Part shown: one piece after another, positions 2,625-31,140 of the stretch
How positions within the stretch are numbered: the first letter of the stretch is position 1
How the letters are laid out: the number at the start of each line of letters is the position of its first letter
Assembly: GCA_008501635.1 (NCBI GenBank)
Contig: QQUJ01000017.1
Location: forward strand, 186,001-250,000
Length of the DNA stretch: 64,000 bases
From: Pseudomonadota bacterium
Lineage (GTDB): Bacteria > Pseudomonadota > Gammaproteobacteria > QQUJ01
Direction: 5' to 3'
Program-made: the position numbers and the translations under genes
Notes under the pieces: model-generated
The model's input: only the letters and a program-made list of their open reading frames with translations
Database searches by the model: none
Told to the model about the DNA's origin: nothing

Positions 2625-2641
2625 CTTGTAGGAGATAGGTG

Positions 2642-2923
2642 ATGGAAGGGTTGCTTTCGCTGTTGCTCTTTGCCGGGTTGTTCTACCTGATGATGCGTTT
2701 CGGCTGCGGTGCGCATTTGATTCACGGTCATGGGGCGGGCAGTAATCCATCTGGTAAACACAAGGACCCGGTTTGCGGTATGGAGGTCGATCCCAACGCT
2801 GGGTACGGTAAAGCGCATGAAGGCACGCTGTATCGATTCTGTTCACGATCCTGCTTGGACAAATTCGAGAATGATCCTGATCAATACTTGAAAAATGATT
2901 CGCTCGACAAATCGATGACATAG
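2642..2923 (+). CDS. Membrane-anchored YHS-domain protein
   Basis: The 93-residue protein has one membrane helix, a MRFGCGAHLIHGHG segment rich in Cys and His, and a YHS domain (DPVCGMEVD at about 40-48, FCSRSCLDKF at about 67-76). YHS domains carry conserved cysteines and are typical of metal ATPases and metal-binding proteins. ATG 2642 is preferred to the in-frame GTG 2639 because AGGAGA at 2630-2635 is six bases upstream. It is the first of three separate YHS-domain proteins in the region (also 3258-4001 and 16040-16906). Metal sensing or buffering is inferred. Confidence 0.82.
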   Translation: MEGLLSLLLFAGLFYLMMRFGCGAHLIHGHGAGSNPSGKHKDPVCGMEVDPNAGYGKAHEGTLYRFCSRSCLDKFENDPDQYLKNDSLDKSMT

Positions 2924-2982
2924 ACGGCAAAGGGCTTGGGCGGTTTGATGCGAGCTCGGTAATCACTCGAGGAGTACTAGCG

Positions 2983-3258
2983 ATGAAAGTTGGAATATCA
3001 CTATCTGCGGTGGGTCAAGCGAGCAGTATTTTTTTGCTGTTCACCTTTCTGCTCTGTGTAGGCTTCGATTTGCTTTTCCCACAGTGGGCCATGTTCGAGT
3101 CCTGGCGCAAACTGCTGCCCGGGTTTGAGTGGATCAGCTGGCGCAGCGTGTTAGTGGGAGCGGTTGAGGCCTACGGCTACGGTTGGTTCTTTGCGCTGAT
3201 TTGGGTTCCGCTTTACAACTTCTTCGCGAACCGCGCGGCGCACGGAGCGGGGGCTTGA
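2983..3258 (+). CDS. DUF5676-type small membrane protein
   Basis: The 91-residue protein has two strong membrane helices (about 13-32 and 56-80) separated by a loop FPQWAMFESWRKLLPGF, the hallmark of the DUF5676 family. These proteins are found beside copper ATPases and YHS proteins. Their function is unknown. Its stop overlaps the next start by one base (TGATG), so the two are probably coupled. Confidence 0.78.
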   Translation: MKVGISLSAVGQASSIFLLFTFLLCVGFDLLFPQWAMFESWRKLLPGFEWISWRSVLVGAVEAYGYGWFFALIWVPLYNFFANRAAHGAGA

Positions 3259-4001
3259 TGACGATGCACGACCCGGTCTGCATGATGGAAGTAGACCCGC
3301 GCAGCGCCGCGGCGATGGTCGTTCATAGAGGCCACGGTTACTACTTCTGCTCAGAAATCTGTCGCAACAAATTTAACGCTGATCCGAACATCTTCATCGG
3401 TAAGCATCTTGCGCCTGCTCTTTGTGTGGGCGTTATGGGGTCGGCCGGTTCGGACGATGCCGAGTGGCTGCGACAGCACGCTTTTCGCCTGGGCAAGGAG
3501 ATCGCCCATCAGGGGCTGACGTTGATTACGGGCGCATGCCCTGGCTTGCCCTACGAGTGCGCGCGGGGGGCGTGGCAATTGGGTGGTATGTCGATTGGTA
3601 TCTCCCCTGCGTTGAGCCTCGACGAACACGTCCACAAATACCTATCGCCGGTCGATGCGTTCGATGTGCTGGTTTACACGGGCAGTGGGCTCATGGGTCG
3701 CGAGGTCACCAATATCCGTTCCAGCGACATGGTGGTGGTGCTGGGTGGCCGCTCCGGCACGCTGGGCGAGTTTGCCATCGCCTACGACGAAGGGAAGCTC
3801 ATCGGCGTGCTGAAAGGGAGTGGCGGTATCGCCGATCAGTTACCGGCGCTGGTTGAATCGATCGGCAAAGAGACCGGTGCGCTCATGGTTTATGAATCTG
3901 AACCGGAACGACTGCTGCAGCGGATGCTCGACGCGTACCGGGGCGGACACTTCCGCAAACCGAACTGTTTCTGCAACGAACAAATCGCTGCCGCGGGCTG
4001 A
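3258..4001 (+). CDS. YHS domain fused to a LOG-family (TIGR00725-like) Rossmann protein
   Basis: Residues 1-45 form a YHS domain (DPVCMMEVDP, FCSEICRNKF). Residues about 52-220 form a LOG/lysine-decarboxylase-like Rossmann fold with GVMGSAGSDD, GACPGLPYECARG and VVVLGGRSGTLGEF. The last matches the PGGxGTxxE motif of LOG proteins with Arg-Ser in place of the middle residues. LOG enzymes are nucleotide phosphoribohydrolases, but TIGR00725-type members have no proven activity. The start at 3258 overlaps the preceding stop. A longer frame back to 3183 has no family support. The C-terminus ends in CFCNEQ, a possible extra metal or redox site. The fusion links a metal-binding module to a nucleotide-binding one. 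Confidence 0.82.
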   Translation: MTMHDPVCMMEVDPRSAAAMVVHRGHGYYFCSEICRNKFNADPNIFIGKHLAPALCVGVMGSAGSDDAEWLRQHAFRLGKEIAHQGLTLITGACPGLPYECARGAWQLGGMSIGISPALSLDEHVHKYLSPVDAFDVLVYTGSGLMGREVTNIRSSDMVVVLGGRSGTLGEFAIAYDEGKLIGVLKGSGGIADQLPALVESIGKETGALMVYESEPERLLQRMLDAYRGGHFRKPNCFCNEQIAAAG

Positions 4002-4048: not shown

Positions 4049-4873
4049 ATGAACAGGATAATGACGATCGATATGAAAGCTGCCGCTGCGCTACCAACCC
4101 TGCTGATCTCCCTGCTATGGATGGCGCCGTCGATGGCGGCCGAACACGCTGTAGATCGTGACCTGGTCCAACGCATCCGTGACGAGGTTATAAAAGAGTT
4201 ACGCGAAAGTGGCGCTCTTGCCCGGGAGGTAGATGCAGGTATCGGTCGGGCGATCGCGCGTCAGCGTGCCGAAGCGCAACGCCGTCCACAGCAGGAGGAG
4301 CAGGCAGAGGCAAAGAATGTCCGTCCGGTCGATCCTGCGCGGGATCATATCTACGGCAATCCGACCGCAAAGGTTTCGCTGATCGAGTACTCCGATTTTG
4401 AATGCCCCTTCTGCAAGCGCTTTCACCAGACCGCGAAGCAATTGGTGGACGAATCGGGCGGTCAGGTTAACTGGGTCTATCGCCACTTTCCGCTCGGCTT
4501 TCACAACCCTGCCGCTCAGCGTGAAGCCGAGGCAACGGAGTGCGCTGCCGAACTGGGCGGTAATGACGCCTTTTGGAAGTACTCGGATCTCGTGTTTGAG
4601 GCAACGCCGTCCAATGGAAAAGGCGTGCCTCCTGAACAACTGACACCACTCGCCACCAAGATCGGCCTCAACAGCAAGCAATTCAAGAGCTGCCTTGACA
4701 GCGGTCGCCACAGTGCACGGGTCCAGGAAGATTTTGTAGAAGGCACGGATATAGGCATTACAGGAACACCTGGCAACATCTTGCGCAACAACGAAACAGG
4801 CAAAGTTCTAAGCCGGGCGGGGGCTCGCCCGATTGAACATTTGAAGGCGGCGGTTGCGGAGTTGCTTCGGTAA
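4049..4873 (+). CDS. Periplasmic DsbA-family thioredoxin (copy 1)
   Basis: This 274-residue protein has an N-terminal export signal ending near APSMAAEH (residue 32), then a charged helical linker (45-90) and a DsbA/DSBA-like thioredoxin domain. The active site is CPFC at about residue 117 and the cis-Pro loop is ITGTPGN near 237. Conserved YRHFPLGFHNPAA and AFWKYSDLVF segments place it with the DsbA/DsbG-like oxidoreductases. It is strongly similar throughout to the protein at 22963-23799. Its likely electron partner is the CcdA-like protein at 10068-10799, or the second CcdA at 23820. Confidence 0.9.
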   Translation: MNRIMTIDMKAAAALPTLLISLLWMAPSMAAEHAVDRDLVQRIRDEVIKELRESGALAREVDAGIGRAIARQRAEAQRRPQQEEQAEAKNVRPVDPARDHIYGNPTAKVSLIEYSDFECPFCKRFHQTAKQLVDESGGQVNWVYRHFPLGFHNPAAQREAEATECAAELGGNDAFWKYSDLVFEATPSNGKGVPPEQLTPLATKIGLNSKQFKSCLDSGRHSARVQEDFVEGTDIGITGTPGNILRNNETGKVLSRAGARPIEHLKAAVAELLR

Positions 4874-5239: not shown

Positions 5240-5254
5240 CAGTCTTTGCAAAGA

Positions 5255-6446
5255 ATGACCATGTCGTTGGATGTATTGCTGATACTGGTGCTCAGTGTCG
5301 CATTCGGTTGGCTGGCCCGCCGGTTTCGCTTCCCAGTCGCCGTGGCGCAGGTGCTGCTGGGCATGTTGATTGGACCGCCCGTGCTGGGTTGGATCGAAGT
5401 CGGTGAGGCGATTCGGTTATTCGGGGAGCTGGGGGTCGTCCTGCTTCTGGGCTTCGCCGGAATGGAATTGGGTGTGCAGCGTTTAGCGGACGCCGGGCGT
5501 TCGGGCGTGCTGGTTGCAATCCTTGGCATTGGCCTTTCTTGGGTAGCGGGATACGGGGTGGCGATCGGGTGGGGTTCGCAAGCGCCCGAGGCGGTTTATG
5601 TGGGTATCGTTCTGGCCGCTACCAGTGTCGGGATCAGCGTCCAGGTGCTGCGACAGTACGGACTGATCGAGCGGCGCGTCGGGGAAATCGTGCTGGCGGC
5701 CGCTGTCATCGATGATGTGATCGCGTTGTACCTTCTGGCTGTCGCGCACGGCACATTTTCCAAGGTCTTCAGTGCTGAAATGCTGGGCATATCGCTGGTG
5801 GCGGGCATTGTGTTGCTGCCAGCGATTTTCTGGAGCGGCCGCTCGCTTTTTCAATCCACCGGCGGGTTTCTGCTGGAGCGGGGTTCGTACGTGACGGTAA
5901 CGGCAGTCGCTGTTTTTCTGGTCATTGCCGGCTGGGCGACAGATCTCGCGGGGTTTTCTCCCGTCGTCGGTGCGTTTTTTGCCGGTTTGGGTGTCAGGGC
6001 CGGTTTCGACCGTCAGGCCAAGCTGGTGCCCGCGTCATCGTTCGAACCGCTGGTTGCCCTTATTACACCATTTTTCTTTATCGCTATCGGCAGTCGCGCG
6101 GATTGGAGCGTGATCGCAGATGCCGGAATGCCGTTGCTGTTGATTGGTTTGGTGATTGCCGCTTTTGCGGGAAAAGTATTGGGCGCTATGGCGGGCGCCC
6201 TGAGTGTGAAGGGTTGGGAGGCGCGCGCTGGTGGGATTTGGCATGTCGCCCCGAGGCGAAGTGGCGTTGGTGATTGCGGCTCTGGGATTTTCCCAGGGGC
6301 ACCTATCGCATCACATGTTGGTTGCGCTGGTGCTGATGACGGTCCTCTGCGCACTGCTGGCACCGGTGGGCATGGCCTACTTTGCGCGCAGGTGCCGAAC
6401 ATCGGCGAGCGCGAAGACTGAGGCGCGAGGGTCAAACCATGGATAA
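5255..6446 (+). pseudogene. CPA2-family (Kef-like) cation/proton antiporter, frameshifted near its C-terminus
   Basis: The first frame encodes about 325 residues of a Na+/H+ exchanger-type antiporter with roughly ten membrane helices. It includes LGFAGMELGVQRL and VIDDVIALYLLAVAHG, the conserved Asp-rich transport motif. Near 6225-6240 the frame runs into low-complexity residues while the next frame supplies VGFGMSPRGEVALVIAALGF, a conserved family motif, plus the final helix and a stop at 6444-6446. One extra base (or two missing ones) explains the shift. No cytosolic RCK/TrkA domain follows. If the shift is real, the last two helices are lost and the protein is probably inactive. If it is an error, the product is a normal antiporter of about 396 residues. 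Confidence 0.78.
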
Positions 6447-8203: not shown

Positions 8204-8241
8204 CCGAGCTTCAGCGGGTCGAATCGTAACGGAGGTGTGTG

Positions 8242-8847
8242 ATGGATACTTTGATCTTGGATGGACGCAGAAGATTCCTGGTTGCAAGCACCACGCTGGT
8301 AGGCGCCGCAGGGTTAACCATGAGTGCGATTCCCTTTCTGGCTTCTTTGAAGCCGAGCGCGTTGGCCAAGGCGCAAGGCGCACTGGTGGAGGTTGATATC
8401 AGTAAGATCGAACCGGGGCAGCAGATCACGGTCACGTGGCGCAAGACGCCGGTGTGGGTCCTGCGTAGGACGCCGGAGATTCTCGAGCGCATCGATCGGC
8501 CAGAACACCTCGAACAACTTCTCGATCCGAACTCGGAGGTAACGACCCAGCAGCCCGATTACGCGCTCAATTCGCATCGTTCGATACGTGATGAGTACTT
8601 CATCGTCGTCAGCATCTGCACGCACCTGGGGTGTGTACCGACCTTCCGTCCGGAGGTGGCACCCGCCGATCTGGGTCCTGATTGGCCGGGCGGCTATTTC
8701 TGCCCTTGTCACGGCTCGCGCTTCGATTTTGCGGGGCGGGTCTTCAAGGGCGTACCGGCACCGAAGAATCTGTTGATACCCCCTTACCGCTTTCTGAGCG
8801 ACACGCACATCGAGATCGGTGTCGATCACGGTACAGCGCAATCTTGA
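8242..8847 (+). CDS. Orphan Rieske iron-sulfur protein (PetA-like)
   Basis: This 201-residue protein has an N-terminal twin-Arg-like signal anchor (GRRRFLVASTT, then a hydrophobic helix). The Rieske ligands are CTHLGC near residue 128 and CPCHGSRFDF near 152, so a [2Fe-2S] cluster held by two Cys and two His is expected. The domain matches the ubiquinol-cytochrome c reductase Rieske subunit, including the linker DYALNSHRSIRDEYF. ATG 8242 follows GGAGG at 8231-8235. No cytochrome b or c1 gene is next to it, so it may work with another partner such as the neighbouring flavoprotein or cytochromes. Confidence 0.88.
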   Translation: MDTLILDGRRRFLVASTTLVGAAGLTMSAIPFLASLKPSALAKAQGALVEVDISKIEPGQQITVTWRKTPVWVLRRTPEILERIDRPEHLEQLLDPNSEVTTQQPDYALNSHRSIRDEYFIVVSICTHLGCVPTFRPEVAPADLGPDWPGGYFCPCHGSRFDFAGRVFKGVPAPKNLLIPPYRFLSDTHIEIGVDHGTAQS

Positions 8848-9012
8848 ATCAGCGAAAAAATCTCACTTGAGAGTGAAATACCGACTAAACCCAACTCTTA
8901 TGCCAAGCAGCGCGTTACATGCGCGCGTCGTATTCACAGATATTGGCTCAGCCAAGTGCTTGCGTGATCGTGATCCGGTACGCCTGGCTTATGTAGTGAA
9001 GGAGTGTTCGCT

Positions 9013-9588
9013 GTGGCAGTGATTCAAACGCTGAGCAACCATCGGTTTCCTTGGTACGTGCGCCTTTTTTTCTGGAATCAGCGGCGCCGCTACGGGAGCG
9101 TGCTCGAGCCGGCCCGGTTATGGGGGCGCTCTCCCAAAGTTTTCGCCGCTTTGGCCTTGTTGTACGGTGCCTTCGATCGCCGTGCCTCACCCCTTGATCC
9201 TGTATTAAGAACGCTGGTGACGGTTCGTGTCTCCCAGATCAATTGGTGTGCCTTTTGTGTCGATATCAACTCGTCGTTGGCTTTGAAACGCGGTCTGTCT
9301 GAGGAGAAGCTGCTGGCGCTGGGTGATTATGCGCAAAGCCCGTTATTTGATGATCGGGAGGTAGCGGTATTGCGCTACGTCGAAGCGGTTACTTTCAGTG
9401 ATCGGCAGCCGGCCAAACGGCATTTCGAGGCGCTACGGAACTATTTTGATGACGATGCGATCATCGAGCTGACCGGCCTCATCGGCTTTCAGAATATGTC
9501 CAGCAAGTTCAACGCCGCGCTGGGTGTGGAGCCGCAGGGATTTTGCCGGATACCCGTTTCGGAGACTGAAGTAAAGGAGTTGGAGTGA
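9013..9588 (+). CDS. AhpD/carboxymuconolactone decarboxylase-family protein
   Basis: The 191-residue protein contains the AhpD-type core with a CAFC redox motif (about residue 77) inside VSQINWCAFCVDINSSLALKR, a helical segment typical of CMD/AhpD proteins. Members with CxxC act as thiol-dependent peroxidase or redox adaptors. GTG 9013 was chosen because AAGGAG at 8999-9004 lies eight bases upstream. The GTG at 9004 overlaps that site. A redox role fits the surrounding Dsb, Rieske and CcdA genes. Confidence 0.8.
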   Translation: MAVIQTLSNHRFPWYVRLFFWNQRRRYGSVLEPARLWGRSPKVFAALALLYGAFDRRASPLDPVLRTLVTVRVSQINWCAFCVDINSSLALKRGLSEEKLLALGDYAQSPLFDDREVAVLRYVEAVTFSDRQPAKRHFEALRNYFDDDAIIELTGLIGFQNMSSKFNAALGVEPQGFCRIPVSETEVKELE

Positions 9589-10064
9589 TGTGGTTGGCGG
9601 TAACCCTAGCGGTGGTGTTGGTCGTTGCGACTTTTCTCACCCACTTTTCGATGCTGCGCTGGTTGTCGGGCGGGATGGGCCGCATACCCATGCGAAAACC
9701 GACGAGAATGATCGCTATTGTACTGGCCACCCTGGCAGCGCACCTGGTGGAGATCGGTCTCTATGCCGGGGTGATTTTCGTTGCGGCGGAGTTCAGCCAG
9801 ATGGGAGGATTGGGCGGCGTCCCTGTCGCGGCGCCGCTCGATTACCTCTATTACTCCGCAGTTACCTTTACTTCGCTCGGATTGGGGGATGTATTCCCAG
9901 TGGGTCATCTCCGTTTTCTCACAGGTGTCGAGGCATTGAACGGTCTGCTGTTAATCGCCTGGTCAGGTTCATTCATCTACATCGCTATGGGGCGCCTGTG
10001 GCAGTGGCAGCCGTGTGCGGAGCCGCGGTGCTCGAAGTCTGGCGATAGAACGAAGGTGGTGTAG
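9588..10064 (+). CDS. Two-helix potassium-channel-like protein
   Basis: This 158-residue protein has an N-terminal helix, a second helix (about 40-65) and then a pore-like segment YYSAVTFTSLGLGDVFPVG (about 90-108) followed by a final helix. This is the Ion_trans_2 layout, with SLGLGD in the place of the TVGYG selectivity filter, so selectivity may differ from a standard K+ channel. The start overlaps the previous stop (TGATG). The C-terminal tail is short and has no nucleotide-binding domain. Confidence 0.75.
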   Translation: MWLAVTLAVVLVVATFLTHFSMLRWLSGGMGRIPMRKPTRMIAIVLATLAAHLVEIGLYAGVIFVAAEFSQMGGLGGVPVAAPLDYLYYSAVTFTSLGLGDVFPVGHLRFLTGVEALNGLLLIAWSGSFIYIAMGRLWQWQPCAEPRCSKSGDRTKVV

Positions 10065-10067
10065 CGC

Positions 10068-10799
10068 ATGGATATTTCCGGCATCGGTGTCATTTCTGCT
10101 TTCGTTGCGGGCCTGATCTCCTTCTTATCCCCCCGCGTACCGCCCTTGGTGCCCGGGTATCTGTCATTCATCTCCGACCAGTCGCTGGATGGCGTCGAGC
10201 GCCATGTGTTTTCCCGCGAGCGCCTGGCAATCATGGGTCTGGGCTTGTGTTTCGTGCTGGGTTTCTCCGTCGTGTTTATCGCCTTTGGTGCGGGCGCAAC
10301 GACCTTGGGAAGTCTCCTGGGCCACTATCGTTATGACGCCAACATCGTCGGTGCTGTCATCGTCATCATCTTCGGTCTGTTCATGACTGGATTGATCCGG
10401 TGGAACTGGTTGCAGCGCGAACTGCGTTTTCATGGTGAGATGAAGGGAGGGCGAGCAGCCTCGGCGGGTGTATTGGGGATCGCTTTCGGTTTCGGCTGGA
10501 CACCCTGCATTGGACCTATCCTGGGGGCGATACTAGCGGTAGCCGCAACATCATCCTCTCAAGGCGCGTCGCTACTTGCCATATACTCTCTAGGTTTCGG
10601 TGTACCCTTTCTGCTTGCGGCGCTCTTCACCGATTGGTTTCTACATCACATGCACAAGGCGCGACGCTTCGGTCCATGGTTGCATCGGATCGCCGGCATG
10701 CGGCTCATTGTCATGGGCACAGCGATGATCACCGGCTATCTCGGGACTTTCTCGTTTTGGTTGCTGGATACTTTTCCGATTCTCGGCTCAATCGCCTAA
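10068..10799 (+). CDS. ccdA: CcdA/DsbD-type thiol-disulfide transporter, one redox Cys lost
   Basis: The 243-residue protein has six or more membrane helices and aligns along its whole length with the CcdA at 23820-24554. CcdA proteins carry reducing power from cytosolic thioredoxin to periplasmic thiol proteins using two membrane cysteines. The second site is intact (GWTPCIGPILGA, about 143-154). The first, normally LSPCVLPLVPGY, reads LSPRVPPLVPGY here (codons near 10126-10164). The Cys is replaced by Arg and the following Leu by Pro. The reading frame is otherwise sound. Unless the change is a sequence error, this copy should not do normal disulfide exchange. Confidence 0.88.
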   Translation: MDISGIGVISAFVAGLISFLSPRVPPLVPGYLSFISDQSLDGVERHVFSRERLAIMGLGLCFVLGFSVVFIAFGAGATTLGSLLGHYRYDANIVGAVIVIIFGLFMTGLIRWNWLQRELRFHGEMKGGRAASAGVLGIAFGFGWTPCIGPILGAILAVAATSSSQGASLLAIYSLGFGVPFLLAALFTDWFLHHMHKARRFGPWLHRIAGMRLIVMGTAMITGYLGTFSFWLLDTFPILGSIA

Positions 10800-10821: not shown

Positions 10822-11628
10822 ATGCTGACTTTTCCCCAGATAGATCCCGTTGCCTTCTCCATCGGCCCGCTGCGCGTGCATTGGTACGGTTTGATGTATC
10901 TCGTTGCCTTCGGACTTGCCTGGTGGCTGGGACGATGGCGAGCAAAACAGGCGGGCAGCGGCTGGAACAACGATCAGGTCAGCGATCTGGTGTTCTACGG
11001 CGCCCTCGGCGCAGTATTGGGCGGGCGCATCGGTTATACGCTGTTTTACGGTTGGAAGTGGCTGGCGGACGATCCGCTCTACCTGTTCCGCGTCTGGGAG
11101 GGGGGGATGTCGTTCCACGGCGGCTTCCTAGGTGTCGTGCTGGCCATGTGGATCTATGCGCGACGTACCCAGCGAACCTTCTGGTTTGTCACTGACTTTA
11201 TCGCGCCGTTGGTGCCCCTGGGTTTGGGTGCCGGGCGTATCGGTAACTTTATCAATGGCGAGCTCCGGGGGCGGGTGACCGATGCCCCCTGGGCGATAGT
11301 GTTTCCCGGCGGTGGCGATTATGCACGCCACCCCTCCCAACTGTATCAGGCCACATTGGAAGGATTGCTGCTATTTCTGGTGCTTTGGTGGTACAGCCGG
11401 CGCCCGAGGCCTGCTGGCGCAGTATCCGCGCTGTTTTTAGTGGGATACGGTGCCTTCCGGTTCGTCGTGGAGTTCGCCCGTGAACCCGACGCGCACCTTG
11501 GGTTTATTGTCCTGGATTGGCTGACTATGGGGCAGGTGTTGTCGCTGCCAATGCTTGTGTTCGGCGTGGGCCTGTTCGCATTCGCCTACCGAAAGCAGCG
11601 AACGGTGGCCGCAGTGGCGGAGCGGTGA
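10822..11628 (+). CDS. lgt: Prolipoprotein diacylglyceryl transferase
   Basis: The 268-residue multi-pass membrane protein matches Lgt along its full length. It has HWYGLMYL near residue 22, [10 protein letters not shown] near 68, [10 protein letters not shown] near 92-101, and the Lgt signature [20 protein letters not shown] near 134-153. The enzyme transfers diacylglycerol from phosphatidylglycerol to the lipobox Cys of prolipoproteins, the first step of lipoprotein maturation. It ends a long co-directional run, although it is a housekeeping gene and may have its own promoter. Confidence 0.96.
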
Positions 11629-13333: not shown

Positions 13334-13765
13334 TCACATGCTGTGTGGTTGGTAAAAAATGCCGCTGGCTTCCTGTAATTCTCGGACGTAACTCACGATC
13401 TTCGGAATCTCCCCGTCAGAGACTTCAGGTCGTGCGGGCATATCACCAAAGCGCCAGTGGTGTTGTTTGACGCCGTTGCGCACGGCGCGGGTGAACGCTT
13501 CGTCGGCATGATGTCCGGGGTTGTAGGTTTTGTGCACCAGGGGTGGTCCCTGTTTGGTGCCTTCAGCCGCTCCTCCGTGACAGGAGGCACAGAAGTTATC
13601 GAATGCTGGCCTACCGGCCAGCGCCTGACGGGAGAGTTTTCTGAGAACCTCCTCAGAGGGTCCTTGGGTGATTGGCGCGCTGGTGTCTGTTTTGATACCC
13701 GTAGTGGCCACACCGTAGCCGATCAGGGCAATGCCGATGGTGACGATTAAGAGTAGATATTTCAT
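13334..13765 (-). CDS. Periplasmic class I cytochrome c
   Basis: The 143-residue protein has an N-terminal signal anchor, one haem-binding site CASCHG near residue 59 and a likely distal Met in FGDMPARPEV near residue 108. This is the layout of a small monohaem cytochrome c. Its start overlaps the stop of the DsbE-like gene by four bases (ATGA on the minus strand), so the two are translationally coupled. The pair suggests a periplasmic electron-transfer unit with dedicated thiol reduction for haem attachment. The physiological partner is unknown. Confidence 0.88.
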   Translation of the reverse strand: MKYLLLIVTIGIALIGYGVATTGIKTDTSAPITQGPSEEVLRKLSRQALAGRPAFDNFCASCHGGAAEGTKQGPPLVHKTYNPGHHADEAFTRAVRNGVKQHHWRFGDMPARPEVSDGEIPKIVSYVRELQEASGIFYQPHSM

Positions 13766-14313
13766 GTGTGAATCTCCTGATAGGGTTCTTGCTGCAGCTG
13801 GTCGAGTAACGGACGAATTTTCGTATCGAGAATTTCGCGATTGATGGGGCCGATCTGTTTGTAGCGGATGGTCCCCTGTTTATCGAGAATGAAGGTCTCG
13901 GGTACCCCGTACACGCCCCAGTCGATGCCGCTGCGACCGGGAAAATCGTAGGCGATCTCCGCGTAAGGGTCACCCAGTTCGGCCAACCATTGCAGGGCGT
14001 CCTCACGTTTGTCTTTGTAGTTGAATCCGTAGAGCGGGTACTTCCCTTCGCGGGCGAATTCCATCCACAGCGGATGCTCTTGACGGCAGGCGGTGCACCA
14101 ACTGGCGAAGACGTTGTAGAGGGAGACCTTACCGATGAAGATCTGTTTGGTAAAACGCTGGTCAGGGTCACGCAGCGTTGGCAGATCGAACTCAGGAGCG
14201 GGTTTGTTGATCAGCGCAGAGGGTATTTCGCGCGGGTTGAGGTAGAGGCCGCGTCCGAACAGGACAACCAGCAGGATAAATATCCCAATCGGAATCAGGT
14301 AGCGATAGTTCAC
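13762..14313 (-). CDS. DsbE/CcmG-like thiol-disulfide oxidoreductase
   Basis: This 183-residue protein has an N-terminal membrane anchor (about 5-25) and a TlpA/CcmG-type thioredoxin domain. The active site is WCTACRQEHP near residue 72 and the cis-Pro region is YGVPETFILD near 139-148. CcmG-type proteins reduce the haem-binding cysteines of apocytochrome c, which fits the coupled cytochrome c gene just downstream. No other ccm gene is present here. Confidence 0.9.
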   Translation of the reverse strand: MNYRYLIPIGIFILLVVLFGRGLYLNPREIPSALINKPAPEFDLPTLRDPDQRFTKQIFIGKVSLYNVFASWCTACRQEHPLWMEFAREGKYPLYGFNYKDKREDALQWLAELGDPYAEIAYDFPGRSGIDWGVYGVPETFILDKQGTIRYKQIGPINREILDTKIRPLLDQLQQEPYQEIHT

Positions 14314-16039: not shown

Positions 16040-16906
16040 TCAGGAGGGCCGCGCCGCTGAGTCCTGCGCGGTGATATAGCGCAAGGGTTCTTCTATGAAG
16101 CGCTCCCGGCAGCGCTCGGAACAGAAGTGATAACTTTTTCCCTGATGCTCAACTTGTAGGATTGAAGTCCACTCATCCACACGCATACCACAGACGGGAT
16201 CGCGCACCCAGGCATGTGGCTCCGCTTTCCGATCACGCAACGCCCCGTCCTCCAACCACAGAATGCGATCGGCTACTTCCTCGACGCGTGGGTCATGAGT
16301 CACCAGCACGATCGTGCGCCCTTCGTCACGGGCGATATCGTGCAGAATCATCATTACCTCCTGGCCGCTATGGGAGTCGAGGTTGCCGGTGGGTTCGTCG
16401 GCAAGAATCAACGCGGGCCGATTGATCAGTGCCCGGGCAATCGCTACCCGTTGTTTCTCACCCCCAGACAGCGTTTTTGGTAATGCATGGCGACGTCTGC
16501 TCAGGCCGAGGCGTTCGATCAGCTGCTTCGCATGGGAGCGTGCAGCACGTATACCGCCCTCCGCCAATCGTGCGGGAAAGAGGATGTTCTCCTCAACACT
16601 CAGCGCCTCCAGCAGATTGAAGGCCTGGAAGATGAAGCCTATACGGTTGGCCCGTACCTCCGGTAATTTTGATTCCGACATCCCGCTGATCTCGATACCG
16701 TCGATCACGATGCGACCGGAGGTGGGGCGCAGCAATCCCCCGATCATGGAAAGCAGGGTGGTTTTGCCCGAGCCGGAAGGGCCCATGATGAGTACCAACT
16801 CACCGGCCGCCGCTTTCAAGGAAATGCCGTTCACCGCGCGAACTTGGGTGTGCCCGCTGCCGAAAAGCTTGACTAACTGCTCGGTAACCACCATGGGGCG
16901 AGTCAT
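16040..16906 (-). CDS. MacB/LolD-type ABC ATPase with C-terminal YHS domain
   Basis: Residues 1-225 form a standard ABC ATPase: Walker [11 protein letters not shown] near 42-51, signature [15 protein letters not shown] near 146, Walker [13 protein letters not shown] near 166, and a switch His in VTHDP. Residues about 234-280 form a YHS domain ([22 protein letters not shown]). Such a domain is not usual in this ATPase family and suggests metal regulation of the transporter. The two FtsX-type permease genes lie immediately upstream. The system belongs to the MacB/LolCDE-like class, which exports lipoproteins, peptides or other envelope substrates. The substrate here is unknown. Confidence 0.9.
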
Positions 16907-22962: not shown

Positions 22963-23799
22963 ATGATAGCCAAACAGATCCTGGTGAAATGGCGCCTTGC
23001 CGTGGGCCTGGTCTTGCTCGGCGCCGGCGTCTTTTCAGCAATGGCGGCCGACAGCGGACCAAGCGGCACCGACGAGCAGCTCGTTCAGCGCATCAAAGAG
23101 GCGGTCATCCAGGAGCTGCGCAGCAGCGGGGCGCTTGACCAGGAGATCGACGAGGGTATACGCCGCTTTGTGATGCGTCAGCAGGCGGCGCGTCAGGCCG
23201 AGGAACAGCGCCAGGAACAACAGGCAGGGCAGCTGGCAAAGAATGTTCGGCCGGTTTCCAAAGAACGTGACCATATCCTCGGCAATCCCGATGCGGAGGT
23301 CTCTATCATCGAGTACTCCGATTTCGAATGCCCGTTCTGCAAGCGCTTCCATCTGACGGCGCATGAATTGGTGCAGGCGTTCAATGGACGAGTGAACTGG
23401 GTTTATCGCCATTTTCCGTTGGGCTTTCACAATCCGGCCGCGCAGCGCGAAGGCGAAGCGAGCGAGTGTGCGGCAGAATTGGGAGGCAACGAGGCATTCT
23501 GGAAGTACACCGATCAGATCTATGTCCGGACCCCCTCCAACGGCAAGGGGTTGAGTACCGAGCAGCTGTTGTCACTGGCCAACGAGATTGGATTGGAGCC
23601 GAAGAAGTTTGGCGAGTGTCTGGAGAGCGGCAGGCACGCAGCTCGTGTGCAGGAAGATTTCCAGGAGGGTAGTTCCATAGGGATCACCGGAACGCCGGGG
23701 AATATTCTGCGCAACAACAAAACCGGTGCAGTCCTGTCCCGAGCGGGGGCGCGGCCATTTGAGGCTCTGAAAGCGGATCTCGAGTCACTGTTGAACTAG
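22963..23799 (+). CDS. Periplasmic DsbA-family thioredoxin (copy 2)
   Basis: The 278-residue protein has a signal peptide ending near SAMAAD (residue 30), a charged helical linker and a DsbA-like domain with CPFCKRFH near residue 121 and ITGTPGN near 240. It is closely similar to the protein at 4049-4873 throughout, including the linker. The paralogous CcdA gene starts 20 bases downstream, so the pair probably forms a periplasmic reductase system, with CcdA keeping the DsbA-like CPFC reduced. Its targets may be metal-binding or cytochrome thiols. Confidence 0.92.
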   Translation: MIAKQILVKWRLAVGLVLLGAGVFSAMAADSGPSGTDEQLVQRIKEAVIQELRSSGALDQEIDEGIRRFVMRQQAARQAEEQRQEQQAGQLAKNVRPVSKERDHILGNPDAEVSIIEYSDFECPFCKRFHLTAHELVQAFNGRVNWVYRHFPLGFHNPAAQREGEASECAAELGGNEAFWKYTDQIYVRTPSNGKGLSTEQLLSLANEIGLEPKKFGECLESGRHAARVQEDFQEGSSIGITGTPGNILRNNKTGAVLSRAGARPFEALKADLESLLN

Positions 23800-23819: not shown

Positions 23820-24554
23820 ATGGAAATATCAGGCGTCGGCGTCCTGACCGCTTTCGCGGCTGGAATCATATCGTTTCTCTCGCCCTGCGTGTTGCCCCTG
23901 GTTCCGGGGTATCTCTCGTTCATGGCGGATCAATCCCTGGACGATGTGGAGCGCAAGATTTTTTCGCGAGAAAGACTGGCGATACTGGGTATCGCCTGTT
24001 GTTTCGTGCTCGGTTTTTCCCTGGTCTTCGTTCTGCTCGGCGCGGGCGCGACCGCGGTCGGTGGTTTGCTTGCGAAATACCGTTACGAGGCCAACATTGT
24101 CGGCGGCGTCATCATTATCGTCTTCGGTATTTTCATGACCGGATTGATCAAACTGAACTGGATGGAGCGCGAGTTTCGTTATCACGGCGGTATCGCCAAG
24201 GGCAGCCGAGCGGTTTCGGCATTTTTACTGGGTCTGGCTTTTGCCTTTGGCTGGACGCCGTGCATTGGTCCCATACTCGGAGCCATACTCACCGTGAGCG
24301 CGACAGCGGAGGGCGCCGGAGTTGTTCTGCTCGCCATCTACTCTTTGGGATTGGGTGTGCCCTTTATTGTCGCGGCGCTGTTCACTGACTGGTCGCTGCA
24401 CCATCTGCGCAAAGCGCGTCGGGTGGGACCGTGGTTGCACCGCGGTGCCGGCGTGCTGCTCATCATCATGGGCATCGCGATGATCACGGGCTATCTCAGC
24501 ACCTTTGCCTTCTGGCTGCTGGAGGCATTTCCCTGGCTCGGGAGGGTGGGTTGA
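23820..24554 (+). CDS. ccdA: CcdA/DsbD-type thiol-disulfide transporter with both cysteines
   Basis: This 244-residue membrane protein has the two redox motifs LSPCVLPLVPGY (about 20-31) and GWTPCIGPILGA (about 145-156) expected of CcdA. It transfers electrons from cytosolic thioredoxin to periplasmic thioredoxin-like proteins, most likely the DsbA-like protein encoded just before it. It aligns along its whole length with 10068-10799, where the first Cys is changed. The stop TGA overlaps the TTG start of the next gene. Confidence 0.94.
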   Translation: MEISGVGVLTAFAAGIISFLSPCVLPLVPGYLSFMADQSLDDVERKIFSRERLAILGIACCFVLGFSLVFVLLGAGATAVGGLLAKYRYEANIVGGVIIIVFGIFMTGLIKLNWMEREFRYHGGIAKGSRAVSAFLLGLAFAFGWTPCIGPILGAILTVSATAEGAGVVLLAIYSLGLGVPFIVAALFTDWSLHHLRKARRVGPWLHRGAGVLLIIMGIAMITGYLSTFAFWLLEAFPWLGRVG

Positions 24555-25622: not shown

Positions 25623-26597
25623 ATGTCCCGATACGCCTTCAAGGAGAGCTGTTTGTCTGCAAGTCGACAGAGCGGAGTGATTCTGCAACCGGGTGGTCTG
25701 GTCGGGCGGCCGCTGCTGTTCGGGGAGGTACTGTTCGACGAGTTCATGGATGGCAGTGTGGTACTCGGTGGCGCGCCATTCAACGTGGCGTGGCATTTGC
25801 GGGGTTTTGGGCTGGATCCTCTGCTGATCAGTCGTGTGGGTGGCGATGTGCTGGGTGATCGGCTTCTCGAGCGCTTGCGGGCACAGCAATTGGACACCGA
25901 GGGTATTCAACGAGATGATGCGCATCCCACGGGACGCGTGCGCGTGACGCTCGTCGACGATCAGCCGCTTTTCTCCATCCTTCCTCAACAAGCCTACGAT
26001 TTCATTGACGCCGCGCATCTGCCGCCACTGGATTCTGCGCACTCCCGCTTTTCCCTGCTTTATCACGGGTCGCTGGCGGTCCGAAACACCGTGAGTGCTC
26101 AGGCGCTGGCTGCGCTGCGCGATTCCGGGTTGCCGATTTTTATCGATATCAATTTGCGCCCTCCGTGGTGGAGTCTCGGTGACATAGAAGCACTTTTAGC
26201 GGGTGGCCGTTGGCTCAAGCTGAATCACGATGAGTTGGCGGAGCTATCGGAACTGGCGGGCCAGACTGTCAACGATTTGCTGCATGGCGCGCGTTCGCTG
26301 TGCAACCGTTTTGGGCTGCAGACGGTTATCGTCACCCGCGGTTCGCAAGGTGCGGTAGCGGTGACCGCGGATGGTATGGCGATAATTGACCCGGTCCCGG
26401 TCGATGGGTTTACGGATTCGGTGGGTGCGGGAGATGCCTTCAGTGCGGTGGTGCTCGTGGGTATTCAGCGCGGTTGGGCACTGGCAACCGCACTGCGACG
26501 CGCAGCTTCCTTCGCCGCGGCGGTTTGTGCGACGCGCGGTGCGATCCCGGATCAGGCCGATTTCTACCAACCCTTTGTGGACTCATGGAAGCGATAG
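25623..26597 (+). CDS. PfkB-family sugar kinase, probable fructokinase
   Basis: This 324-residue protein carries the PfkB fold with the N-terminal GGAPFNVAWHLRGFG motif (about 46-60) and the C-terminal signature DSVGAGDAFSAVVL (near 265), including the catalytic Asp of GAGD. It is followed with a 13-base overlap by sucrose-phosphate synthase, then sucrose synthase. Fructose is therefore the likely substrate, as sucrose synthase and sucrose breakdown release it. The start could also be GTG 25605 in the same frame. Confidence 0.88.
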   Translation: MSRYAFKESCLSASRQSGVILQPGGLVGRPLLFGEVLFDEFMDGSVVLGGAPFNVAWHLRGFGLDPLLISRVGGDVLGDRLLERLRAQQLDTEGIQRDDAHPTGRVRVTLVDDQPLFSILPQQAYDFIDAAHLPPLDSAHSRFSLLYHGSLAVRNTVSAQALAALRDSGLPIFIDINLRPPWWSLGDIEALLAGGRWLKLNHDELAELSELAGQTVNDLLHGARSLCNRFGLQTVIVTRGSQGAVAVTADGMAIIDPVPVDGFTDSVGAGDAFSAVVLVGIQRGWALATALRRAASFAAAVCATRGAIPDQADFYQPFVDSWKR

Positions 26598-28753
26598 AAG
26601 ACAAGCTGCCAGGTAAGTACTTTTTACTGATCAGCGTTCACGGCCTGCTTCGTGGTGAAGATATGGAGCTGGGCCGCGATGCCGATACCGGGGGACAGAT
26701 CAAATACGTTGTTGAGCTGGCACGGGCCCTGGGTGCGGACCCACGTATTGATCGAGTCGATCTCATCACGCGCAAAATAGAAGATCAGCGTGTCGCACCG
26801 GGTTACGCTGCACGGGAGGAGGTGCTTGCCCCCGGTGTGCGTATCGTCCGTCTACCTTGCGGACCGCGACGCTACCTGCGCAAGGAGATGCTTTGGCCGC
26901 ATCTCGACAGCCTTGTCGATCAGATCACGCAGTACATCTCAACCCTCGGCCGCATTCCCGACTTCATCCACAGCCACTATGCCGATGCGGGCTACGTGGG
27001 CACTCGGCTTGCCTCGCTGCTGGGCGTGCCACTGCTGCATACCGGGCATTCGCTGGGGCGGGTCAAGCGCCAGCGCCTGCAGGAGAAGGGTGATAATGCA
27101 GCGGCGCTGGAGAGTGAGTACAACCTGGTGCAGCGGATCGAGGCCGAGGAGCAGACCCTGGATGCCGCTGATCTTGTCGTTGCCAGTACCGCCCAGGAGG
27201 TCGACGAGCAATACGCCCTTTACGACAAGTACAATCCACGACGCATGGCGGTGATTCCACCGGGCATCGAGTTGAGCCGTTTTCATCCGCCGCGTCGTGT
27301 CTTTGGTCGGCCGGCGATCCTGCACGAGCTGGAGCGTTTTCTAAGAGAACCACGCAAACCCATGATTCTCGCGCTATCCCGCCCCGATGAACGCAAGAAT
27401 ATCACGGCGCTGGTACGGGCCTACGCGCAACACCCCACGTTGCGCGACATCGCCAATCTCGTCGTGATCGCCGGGAATCGCGATGACCTGGCCAGCATGG
27501 AACGTGGTCCACGCCAGGTGCTGAGCGATCTGCTGATCGACATCGATCGTTACGACCTCTACGGCAAGGTGGCCTATCCCAAGCACCATCAGGCTGACGA
27601 TGTACCGGAACTCTATCGTCTTGCGGCCCGCACGCGCGGGATCTTCATCAATCCTGCGTTGACCGAGCCGTTTGGATTGACACTGATCGAAGCCGCGGCG
27701 AGCGGTCTTCCCATATTGGCCACGGAAGATGGGGGGCCGCGAGATATCATCGGCCATTGCCACAACGGCGCGTTGATCGATCCCTTGGATATTCCCGCCA
27801 TGGGTCAGGCATTGCATAACGCACTCACCGATCGCAAACAGTGGCGTCGCTGGGCACGTAACGGGCTGCGCGGTGTACATCGGCACTACTCGTGGCAGGG
27901 GCACGTTGACCGCTATCTGAAAGTGATCGATCGCGTGATCGAAAAACCGGCGCGCAGACGCAATCTGGTAACGACACGCAGCCGGCTGCCGGAGATCGAT
28001 CGATTGCTGGTGTGTGATATCGACAACACTCTGATCGGCGACGGCGCCGGACTGCGCGCCCTGATGAAGCGTTTGCACGATACCGACTGTCGCATCGGAT
28101 TTGCCATTGCCACCGGCCGGCGTATCGACAGTGCCCGCAAGATACTCAAGGAGTGGAAAGTGCCGACGCCGGATGTTCTGGTCACGGCCGTTGGCAGTGA
28201 GATCTACTACGGTCACTGGATGGTCGAGGATGAGAGCTGGCAGACACTCATCGATTATCGCTGGGATCGCGATGGCCTGCTGGAGGCCATGGGCGATCTT
28301 GCCGGGTTGAAGCTGCAGATCAAAAGCGAACAGCGTCGTCACAAGATCTCCTACAACGTCGATCCCAAGGTGATGCCTTCGGTGCGCGATATACAACGCC
28401 ACCTGCGCCAGCGTGATCTGCACGCCAACGTCATCTTCTCCCACCAGGCCTATCTTGATCTGTTACCGTTGCGCGCATCGAAGGGGCTCGCTTTGCGCTA
28501 TCTTTCTATGAAGTGGAATCTGCCGCCGGAGCGTATTCTGGTCGCAGGCGATTCCGGTAACGATGAAGAGATGCTGCGCGGGGATATGTTGGGTGTAGTG
28601 GTTGGCAACTACAGCAAGGAGCTGGAGAAGCTGCGTGGTCAACCGCGTTTGTTGTTTGCCAGGCGGGACTATGCCTGGGGCGTGGTGGAGGCGCTGGACT
28701 ACTTCGATTTTCTCGATCGGGTGGTCACGCACGATGAGGAGACGGGCGAGTGA
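26585..28753 (+). CDS. sps: Sucrose-phosphate synthase fused to a HAD phosphatase domain
   Basis: The 722-residue protein has a GT-B glycosyltransferase part (about 1-460) with [19 protein letters not shown] near 29-47, [10 protein letters not shown] near 152 and [16 protein letters not shown] near 365-380. These are features of plant-type sucrose-phosphate synthases, which join UDP-glucose to fructose 6-phosphate. Residues about 475-720 are a HAD domain with [11 protein letters not shown] and [10 protein letters not shown], matching sucrose-6-phosphate phosphatase. Both steps of sucrose making are thus on one chain. ATG 26585 gives the known N-terminal start of the family. Confidence 0.92.
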
Positions 28754-31140
28754 TCGAATCTTTGGACGACTTCCTGGCCGAGCATCGCGATCAGCTGTAT
28801 CTTGCGCTGCGCCACTACCTGGGCCTGCAGAAACCCTTGTTGCTGCATTCCGAGTTGTGGGATGAGTTCGAACGTTTCTGTCGCGAGAGCGGTCACGAAA
28901 CACTGCTGCAATCCCCGCTGGGCAAGGCGATTCATGCCACTCAGGAGGCGGTGCTCGATGCACCCTGGATCTATATCGCAGTGCGCCCGTCCGTCGCGCG
29001 CTGGCGCTATCTGCGGTTTCATGTTGAAGCAGGGCACCATGAAAGCATTCCCGTAAACGAGTTTCTGCGCTTCAAGGAACGCGTGGTCAACGGTCGCGAC
29101 CACGAGCACGACTGGGTGCTGGAGGTGGATCTCGGTCCTTTCAATCGCGAGTTTCCCAAGCTGAAAGAGTCGCGCTCCATCGGCCGCGGCGTGGAGTTTC
29201 TCAATCGGCGCCTCTCCAGCCAGTTGTTCCAGGAACTCGGTAAAGGCGATCGCAAACTGCTGGAGTTTCTGCGCGTCCATCAGCACCAAGGCCGCAAGTT
29301 GATGCTCAACGATCGCATCGCCGAGGTGGATGATCTGCGCCGTGCCTTGCGCCGTGCCGAAGAGTATCTTGGTGGTCAGGCTGACGCCAACACCTGGGAG
29401 CAGGTCGGCCATACGCTGCAGTACCTGGGCTTCGAACCCGGCTGGGGGCGCGATGTGACGCGCATGCGCGATACGCTGGGGCAATTGAGCGACATCCTCG
29501 AAGCGCCCGAGCCGACGACCCTGGATCAGTTCCTGAGTCGTATCCCCATGATCTTCTCCATCGCCATCCTTTCACCCCATGGTTACTTCGGTCAGGCCAA
29601 TGTGCTCGGACTTCCCGATACCGGTGGACAGGTGGTCTACATACTCGATCAGGTGCGGGCGCTGGAGAAGGAGATGCGCCGGCGCCTCTGGGAGCAGGGT
29701 CTGGAGATAGAGCCACGCATCCTGGTTATCACCCGGCTGATCCCCGAAGCGGGCAATACCACCTGCGATCAACGTCTGGAACCGATCGTGGGCACCGAGA
29801 ACGCGCAGATTCTGCGGGTTCCGTTTCACAATCGGCAGGGCGAGATGATTCCGCAGTGGATCTCTCGCTTTCAGATCTGGCCGTATCTTGAGCGATTCAC
29901 CGCCGATGTCGAACGCGAACTGCTGGCTGAATTGGGAGGGCGGCCCGATCTGATTATCGGTAACTACTCCGACGGCAACCTGGTGGCGACGCTGCTTTCG
30001 CAACGCCTCAAGGTCACCCAGTGCAACATCGCCCATGCTCTGGAGAAGACCAAGTACCTCTACTCCGATCTCTATTGGCGCGACAACGAGGAGCACTATC
30101 ATTTCGCGTGCCAGTTCACCGCCGATCTCATCGCCATGAACGCCGCCGATTTTATTATCACCAGTACTTATCAAGAGATCGCCGGGCGCCAGGACAGCGT
30201 GGGGCAGTACGAAAGCTACGCCGCTTTTACCATGCCGGGGCTCTACCGGGTGGTCAACGGTATCGATCTGTTTGACCCCAAGTTCAATATCGTCTCGCCG
30301 GGTGCCGATGATGAGATCTACTTCCCCTATGGTGAATCGGGCCGGCGCCTGAGCGGTGTGCATGGCGAGATCGGCCGGCTGCTCTATGCCGCCGATCAGC
30401 CGGGCGCGCGCGGCGAGTTCATCGAACCCGAGAAACCGTTGCTGTTTACGATGGCCCGCCTCGACAAGATCAAAAACATCACCGGATTGGTGGAGTGGTA
30501 TGCGCAAAACGATAAGCTGCGCGCGCTGACCAATCTGCTGGTCATAGCGGGACATGTCGATGTGAAACACTCTTCGGATGATGAGGAGCGCGCGCAGATT
30601 CAGCACATGCATCAGTTGATGGACGAGTACGGGCTCGACGGACAGGTGCGCTGGCTCGGAGTGCACCTGGAGAAGAAGCTCGCCGGCGAACTCTACCGCT
30701 ACATTGCCGATCGCCGCGGCGCGTTTGTCCAACCGGCGCTGTTCGAGGCCTTCGGTCTCACCGTGATCGAAGCGATGGTTTCGGGGCTGCCTACCTTCGC
30801 CACCTGTTACGGCGGACCGTTGGAGATCATCGAAGATGGGATCTCAGGTTTTCATATCAACCCCAACCACGGCAGCGAGGCTGCCGACAAGCTGGTTCGA
30901 TTCTTCGAGCGTTGTCAAAGCGAATCGGGCTATTGGGGACGCATCAGTCACGGTTCGGTGGAACGGGTGCGCGCCCGCTACACCTGGCAGCTCTACGCCG
31001 AGCGGCTGATGACGCTGTCGCGCATCTACGGTTTCTGGAAGTATGTCACCAACCTCGAACGCGACGAGACGCTGCGTTATCTGGAGATGTTCTACGGCCT
31101 GCAGTATCGACCGTTAGCGGAATTCGGCAGTGAGCAATAG
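28750..31140 (+). CDS. sus: Sucrose synthase
   Basis: This 796-residue protein matches bacterial and plant sucrose synthases in length and layout. It has an N-terminal regulatory region (1-260), then the GT-B core with [19 protein letters not shown] near 287-305, [15 protein letters not shown] near 428 and the [17 protein letters not shown]-x7-E motif near 668-683. It interconverts sucrose plus UDP with UDP-glucose plus fructose. GTG 28750 overlaps the previous stop (GTGA), so it is coupled to the synthase gene. With the kinase and SPS it forms a sucrose cycle, possibly for osmoprotection or carbon storage. Confidence 0.95.

Follow-up and report, generated by a model that had tools for sequence, protein, structure and literature searches.

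Within the 64,000-nucleotide window of contig QQUJ01000017.1, the gene ccdA1 (10068..10799, plus strand) encodes a 243-amino-acid CcdA/DsbD_TM homologue in which an arginine stands in place of a redox cysteine. We asked whether this substitution is real and, if so, what the protein may have become without its cysteine. At the first conserved site, ccdA1 reads LSPRVPPLVPGY, whereas its paralogue ccdA2 (23820..24554, plus strand) reads LSPCVLPLVPGY. Codon 23 of ccdA1 (10134..10136, plus strand), at the redox-Cys site of transmembrane segment 1 (TM1), is CGC and encodes Arg, and codon 25 (10140..10142, plus strand) is CCG and encodes Pro; in ccdA2, the codons at these two sites are TGC and TTG. 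The initial annotation had described a Cys-to-Arg change in an open frame with the other Cys retained, and we confirmed each of these points: the reading frame runs without stop or indel through all 243 codons, and the redox cysteine of TM4, Cys147 (TGC, 10506..10508, plus strand), is present in the motif GWTPCIGP. The annotation had also counted three base substitutions, which holds relative to the TTG of ccdA2; only two are needed from CTG, the Leu25 codon in 65 of the 94 other rows of our 95-row alignment. Residue 25 is Leu in 93 of those 94 rows. A further outlier, Arg212 (CGG, 10701..10703, plus strand), lies close to the C-terminal end in an otherwise hydrophobic column that holds L, I, V, A, F or M in all other residue-bearing rows. 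ccdA1 also contains a cysteine at position 61, but the same column is Cys in 38 of the 94 other rows, and Cys61 is therefore no copy-specific compensation.

We found that ccdA1 matches the DsbD_TM profile PF02683 with 58.3 bits against a cut-off of 27.1 (E=8.9e-16), across positions 5-214 of the 219-position profile. The DsbD_2 profile (PF13386) also matches ccdA1 (E=1e-7), and ccdA2 has no match to it at E 0.001 or better. Two more specific assignments were rejected: the ArsG permease (NF040495; 38 bits, cut-off 200) and the rhodanese/DsbD fusion selenoprotein TsoB (NF045694; 47.6 bits, cut-off 805), for which only positions 185-395 of 572 were matched. In six-TM CcdA proteins, TM1 and TM4 each carry a cysteine at the end (available portion of PMC4491210); ccdA1 has Arg23 at the first of these sites and Cys147 at the second. 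Near full-length sequence similarity (E=2.3e-30) links ccdA1 to 5VKV, the solution NMR structure of a six-TM CcdA of the DsbD family. The two share the TM4 Cys motif, but 5VKV has Cys where ccdA1 has Arg23, and ccdA1 additionally carries Pro25 and Arg212. Similarly, ccdA1 is homologous to the beta domain of DsbD, a transmembrane electron conduit with C163 and C285 in E. coli, but lacks the alpha and gamma domains as well as an equivalent of C163. An AlphaFold2 model of ccdA1 (pLDDT 80, pTM 0.75) was built from an alignment of Cys-type homologues, which favours the CcdA fold regardless of the substitutions; with this model, Foldseek returned 5VKV as the sole PDB match with E<=0.001 (E=1.5e-6, TM 0.51, rmsd 6.8). 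Because the input alignment was of the Cys type, the model is no proof that Pro25 and Arg212 are tolerated.

To determine how rare Arg23 is, we collected homologues from 80 public genome contigs, 94 same-class genomes and 369 class-level genomes, the latter two sets including the genome under study. A scan of the contigs with the protein query alone gave no matches, whereas an alignment-based scan found homologues; the patterns used in that scan omitted position 23, and the collection was thus not selected for Cys there. The 114 loci collected yielded 95 aligned rows, comprising three copies from the genome itself and 92 others, after we set aside eight loci of the genome under study (for which the three named copies stand in), six identical proteins and eight remote loci with no match at E<=1e-10. 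Cys occupied position 23 in all 94 rows besides ccdA1, and Cys147 was likewise present in 94 of 94. The eight remote loci also have Cys at aligned position 23; in one of them, L010, no Cys was seen at 147. At the DNA level, the exact pattern in its Cys form occurred at 31 places in 31 of 398 proteobacterial genomes, ccdA2 included, and in its Arg form at two places in the same genomes, namely ccdA1 and a site in genome G629. We rejected the latter as a CcdA gene: it gave no significant tblastn match and is a chance match. Every available relative thus keeps Cys, the outcome that the initial annotation had named as counting against its reading, but all of these relatives come from other orders.

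Could the Arg and Pro codons instead be base-call or assembly errors in a gene that truly reads Cys-Val-Leu? The genome is a draft of 30 contigs, and with CTG as the ancestral Leu codon the two differences would both be T-to-C changes, spaced just 7 bases apart. In addition, a gene for a Na+/H+ exchanger 4 kb upstream (5246..6421, plus strand; PF00999) has a frame change: in a three-frame reading, its open frame departs from the family sequence near 6220 and continues in another frame. The initial annotation had spoken of frameshifted genes nearby; the exchanger bears this description out in part. Several observations nevertheless make such errors unlikely. Neighbouring genes break few of the columns that are invariant in their small sets of relatives (7 of 77 for lgt and 4 of 77 for DsbG1), and mostly mildly: the lgt changes are mild, and DsbG1 has two harsher ones (A to E and E to K) among its four. 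ccdA2 breaks no near-invariant column in the 90-row comparison described below, codon 212 of ccdA1, some 570 bp further on, holds a third unusual base change, and this density of substitution errors would be unusual for an assembly that is 98% complete and 0.6% contaminated. A base-call error is an unlikely source of Arg23, and we take Arg23 to be a genuine and rare replacement in a copy that is redundant.

That redundancy is apparent from the genome itself, which contains three DsbD_TM genes, and both of those besides ccdA1 keep both cysteines. ccdA2, identified by tree and Pfam, is 70% identical to ccdA1 and lies 13 kb away. In a maximum-likelihood tree the two are sisters with support of 100/95, the copy of genome G060 joining next (99/69), and their branch lengths are 0.28 for ccdA1 and 0.19 for ccdA2. 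Judged from their sequences, ccdA1 and ccdA2 are products of a lineage-specific duplication. The DsbG-like genes have a similar relationship. DsbG1 (4049..4873, plus strand; PF13462/PF01323) encodes a DsbA/Thioredoxin_4-family periplasmic protein with an intact CPFC motif, and its paralogue DsbG2 (22963..23799, plus strand), with CPFC and 66% identity to DsbG1, lies directly upstream of ccdA2; the two pair together in a six-row FastTree tree. Both ccdA copies have a DsbG-like gene nearby, but only ccdA2 directly follows its own. Duplication of a whole dsbG-ccdA block would be the simplest reading. The third copy is also found on this contig, between a putative SoxB gene upstream and a thioredoxin-like gene downstream.

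ccdA1 itself sits in a tight run of genes in the order AhpD-like, channel-like, ccdA1, lgt. The run begins with an AhpD/CMD-family protein with an intact CAFC motif (9004..9588, plus strand; PF02627, NF053654, TIGR00778), followed by an Ion_trans_2 channel-like protein (9585..10064, plus strand; PF07885), whose gene overlaps that of AhpD by 4 bp, with 3 bp between its end and ccdA1. A second prolipoprotein diacylglyceryl transferase gene, lgt (10822..11628, plus strand; PF01790, TIGR00544), starts 22 bp after ccdA1; another lgt, with 61% identity, is located on contig C10 of the assembly. The upstream part of the cluster includes a Rieske protein (8239..8847, plus strand; TIGR01416). Downstream, a second CcmG/DsbE-like thioredoxin, CcmG2 (13762..14313, minus strand), scores above the TIGR00385 cut-off and has an intact WCTAC motif; beside it is a small ORF resembling a c-type cytochrome (13334-13765, minus strand). 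The main ccm genes, encoding CcmG and CcmH, are on another contig. A scan for promoters and terminators was uninformative, with a single promoter-like site (minus strand) where 1.9 were expected.

Parts of this arrangement recur in two gammaproteobacterial MAGs, each with a Cys-type CcdA and a single ccdA within the stretch examined. In the first (L023) the order is DsbG-like, CcmG/TlpA-like, CcdA, AhpD, and in the second (L042) it is DsbG-like, TlpA-like, SCO-like, CcdA, Rieske, with the TlpA-like and SCO-like genes assigned by motif. The AhpD homologue that adjoins ccdA in L023 is 71% identical to ours, and the Rieske homologue near ccdA in L042 is 66% identical. From these gene orders it follows that ccdA1, and not ccdA2, holds the neighbourhood common to relatives. 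We also considered whether the cluster as a whole is broken and rejected this: DsbG1, CcmG2, AhpD and Rieske each retain an intact CXXC or metal-binding motif. Survival of ccdA1 through polarity onto an essential lgt is weakened as an explanation by the second lgt on contig C10.

How, then, might a CcdA have lost its first cysteine? We propose that in the ancestral CcdA a pair of cysteines, one in TM1 and one in TM4, took electrons from thioredoxin in the cytoplasm and relayed them to thioredoxin-fold partners in the periplasm (DsbG-like and CcmG-like proteins). Duplication in the lineage of this bacterium would have given rise to ccdA1 and ccdA2, apparently along with the DsbG-like neighbour. 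Loss of the TM1 Cys in ccdA1 would then have made a dithiol relay impossible, while ccdA2 and the third copy near the Sox genes presumably cover the function. In DsbD, both C163 (TM1) and C285 (TM4) are essential for the reduction of DsbC, and the surface at C163 faces the cytoplasm (available portion of PMC3526765). Because this homologue needs both transmembrane cysteines, relay by ccdA1 should have stopped; the assertion of the initial annotation to this effect follows by analogy from the DsbD work, as far as the available portion of PMC3526765 describes it. Our preferred account is that ccdA1 is probably a redundant duplicate without electron relay, in an early stage of decay that has so far involved missense changes only. 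Among the readings that the initial annotation had offered, decay fits best: the sister copy is intact, three residues of ccdA1 are radical outliers, every homologue has Cys, and the Cys147 motif has stayed the same, as a recent loss would predict. The intact frame in a tight gene run counts against it. If decay is correct, ccdA1 would be a commonplace example of a redundant duplicate caught while its active site is being lost, and annotating it as 'cytochrome c biogenesis protein CcdA' would claim more function than it has.

We looked for signs of decay or relaxed selection in ccdA1 in a 90-row comparison that left out the long-branch rows L006, L009, L084, L113 and L114. Here ccdA1 departed at three columns from a residue shared by all 89 other rows, the most of any row (runner-up, two), and placed a charge in two columns that are otherwise never charged, again the most (runner-up, one). 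At columns conserved to at least 97%, ccdA1 broke four, and three long-branch rows broke more (five or six); ccdA2 broke none of the near-invariant columns. Arg23 was the costliest residue change in either sister, at -9.9 bits. At columns invariant in five near relatives, ccdA1 broke 10 of 95, close to the 8 of 93 of the intact L023, which counts against decay; the figures were 5 of 90 for L005 and 3 of 88 for ccdA2. Across the protein as a whole, relaxation was not significant. A relative-rate test gave 40 derived residues in ccdA1 and 26 in ccdA2, with seven sites ambiguous, which is not a significant difference (p=0.11), and the severity of the changes likewise did not differ significantly between the sisters (summed loss of 90 and 42 bits, respectively; p=0.11). 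The family score of ccdA1 is mid-range, the 53rd lowest of 90. The rate and severity comparisons yield trends only and speak against strong general decay, as does the mid-range score. In a codon model for selection on the ccdA1 branch, synonymous sites were saturated and the fitted branch length was at its upper bound, and the omega values are for this reason silent on recent relaxation.

These results also bear on the possibility that ccdA1 has acquired a non-redox role that benefits from the Arg and can do without the TM1 Cys, for example as a transporter or ion-linked permease, or as a scaffold for DsbG1, CcmG2 or AhpD. An open frame within a closely packed gene run that also holds a channel-like gene and lgt would fit such a role, as would the conservation of the remaining protein, reflected in its mid-range family score, and the PF13386 match that ccdA2 lacks. 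Yet the redox motif at Cys147 has not changed, both Pro25 and Arg212 seem harmful, Arg23 occurs in no homologue, and nothing points to a new substrate site. We consider this role doubtful; the non-redox transporter of the initial annotation, for which we found no positive support, is retained at lower weight than decay. In a broader version, selection would have kept ccdA1 after loss of the TM1 Cys as a pseudo-electron-conduit that transports an ion or binds DsbG1 or CcmG2 and is coupled to the neighbouring channel, AhpD and lgt genes, with Arg23 functional. This seems to us quite unlikely. If it were true, ccdA1 would be a natural CcdA working without the dithiol relay, and the Arg form would offer a tool for separating partner binding from electron transfer in the CcdA family. 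A CcdA with its TM1 Cys replaced is described neither in the titles and abstract openings of the literature searched nor in the available portions of PMC3526765, PMC8782879, PMC3842002, PMC4491210 and PMC4460558.

Finally, the initial annotation had suggested a mixed-disulfide trap, that is, a one-Cys protein or regulator that catches a periplasmic thioredoxin-fold partner via Cys147. The retention of Cys147 and its motif is compatible with this idea, and the genes for DsbG1 and CcmG2, two candidate partners with CXXC motifs, lie no more than 10 kb away. We disfavour it as very improbable: the lost residue corresponds to DsbD C163, the surface of which faces the cytoplasm (available portion of PMC3526765), a stable trap would be costly, no sequence change favouring a trap was seen, including around Cys147, where there is no adaptation, and Pro25 and Arg212 would be left unexplained. 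Decay of a redundant duplicate thus remains our preferred account of ccdA1.

Elsewhere in the window, YHS domains occur at 2639-4001 and 16040-16906, in a small YHS protein, a protein with YHS and LDcluster4 (SLOG) domains and an ABC ATPase that carries its YHS domain at the C terminus. Genes for a sucrose-phosphate synthase/phosphatase-like protein and a sucrose synthase adjoin each other at 26474-31140.
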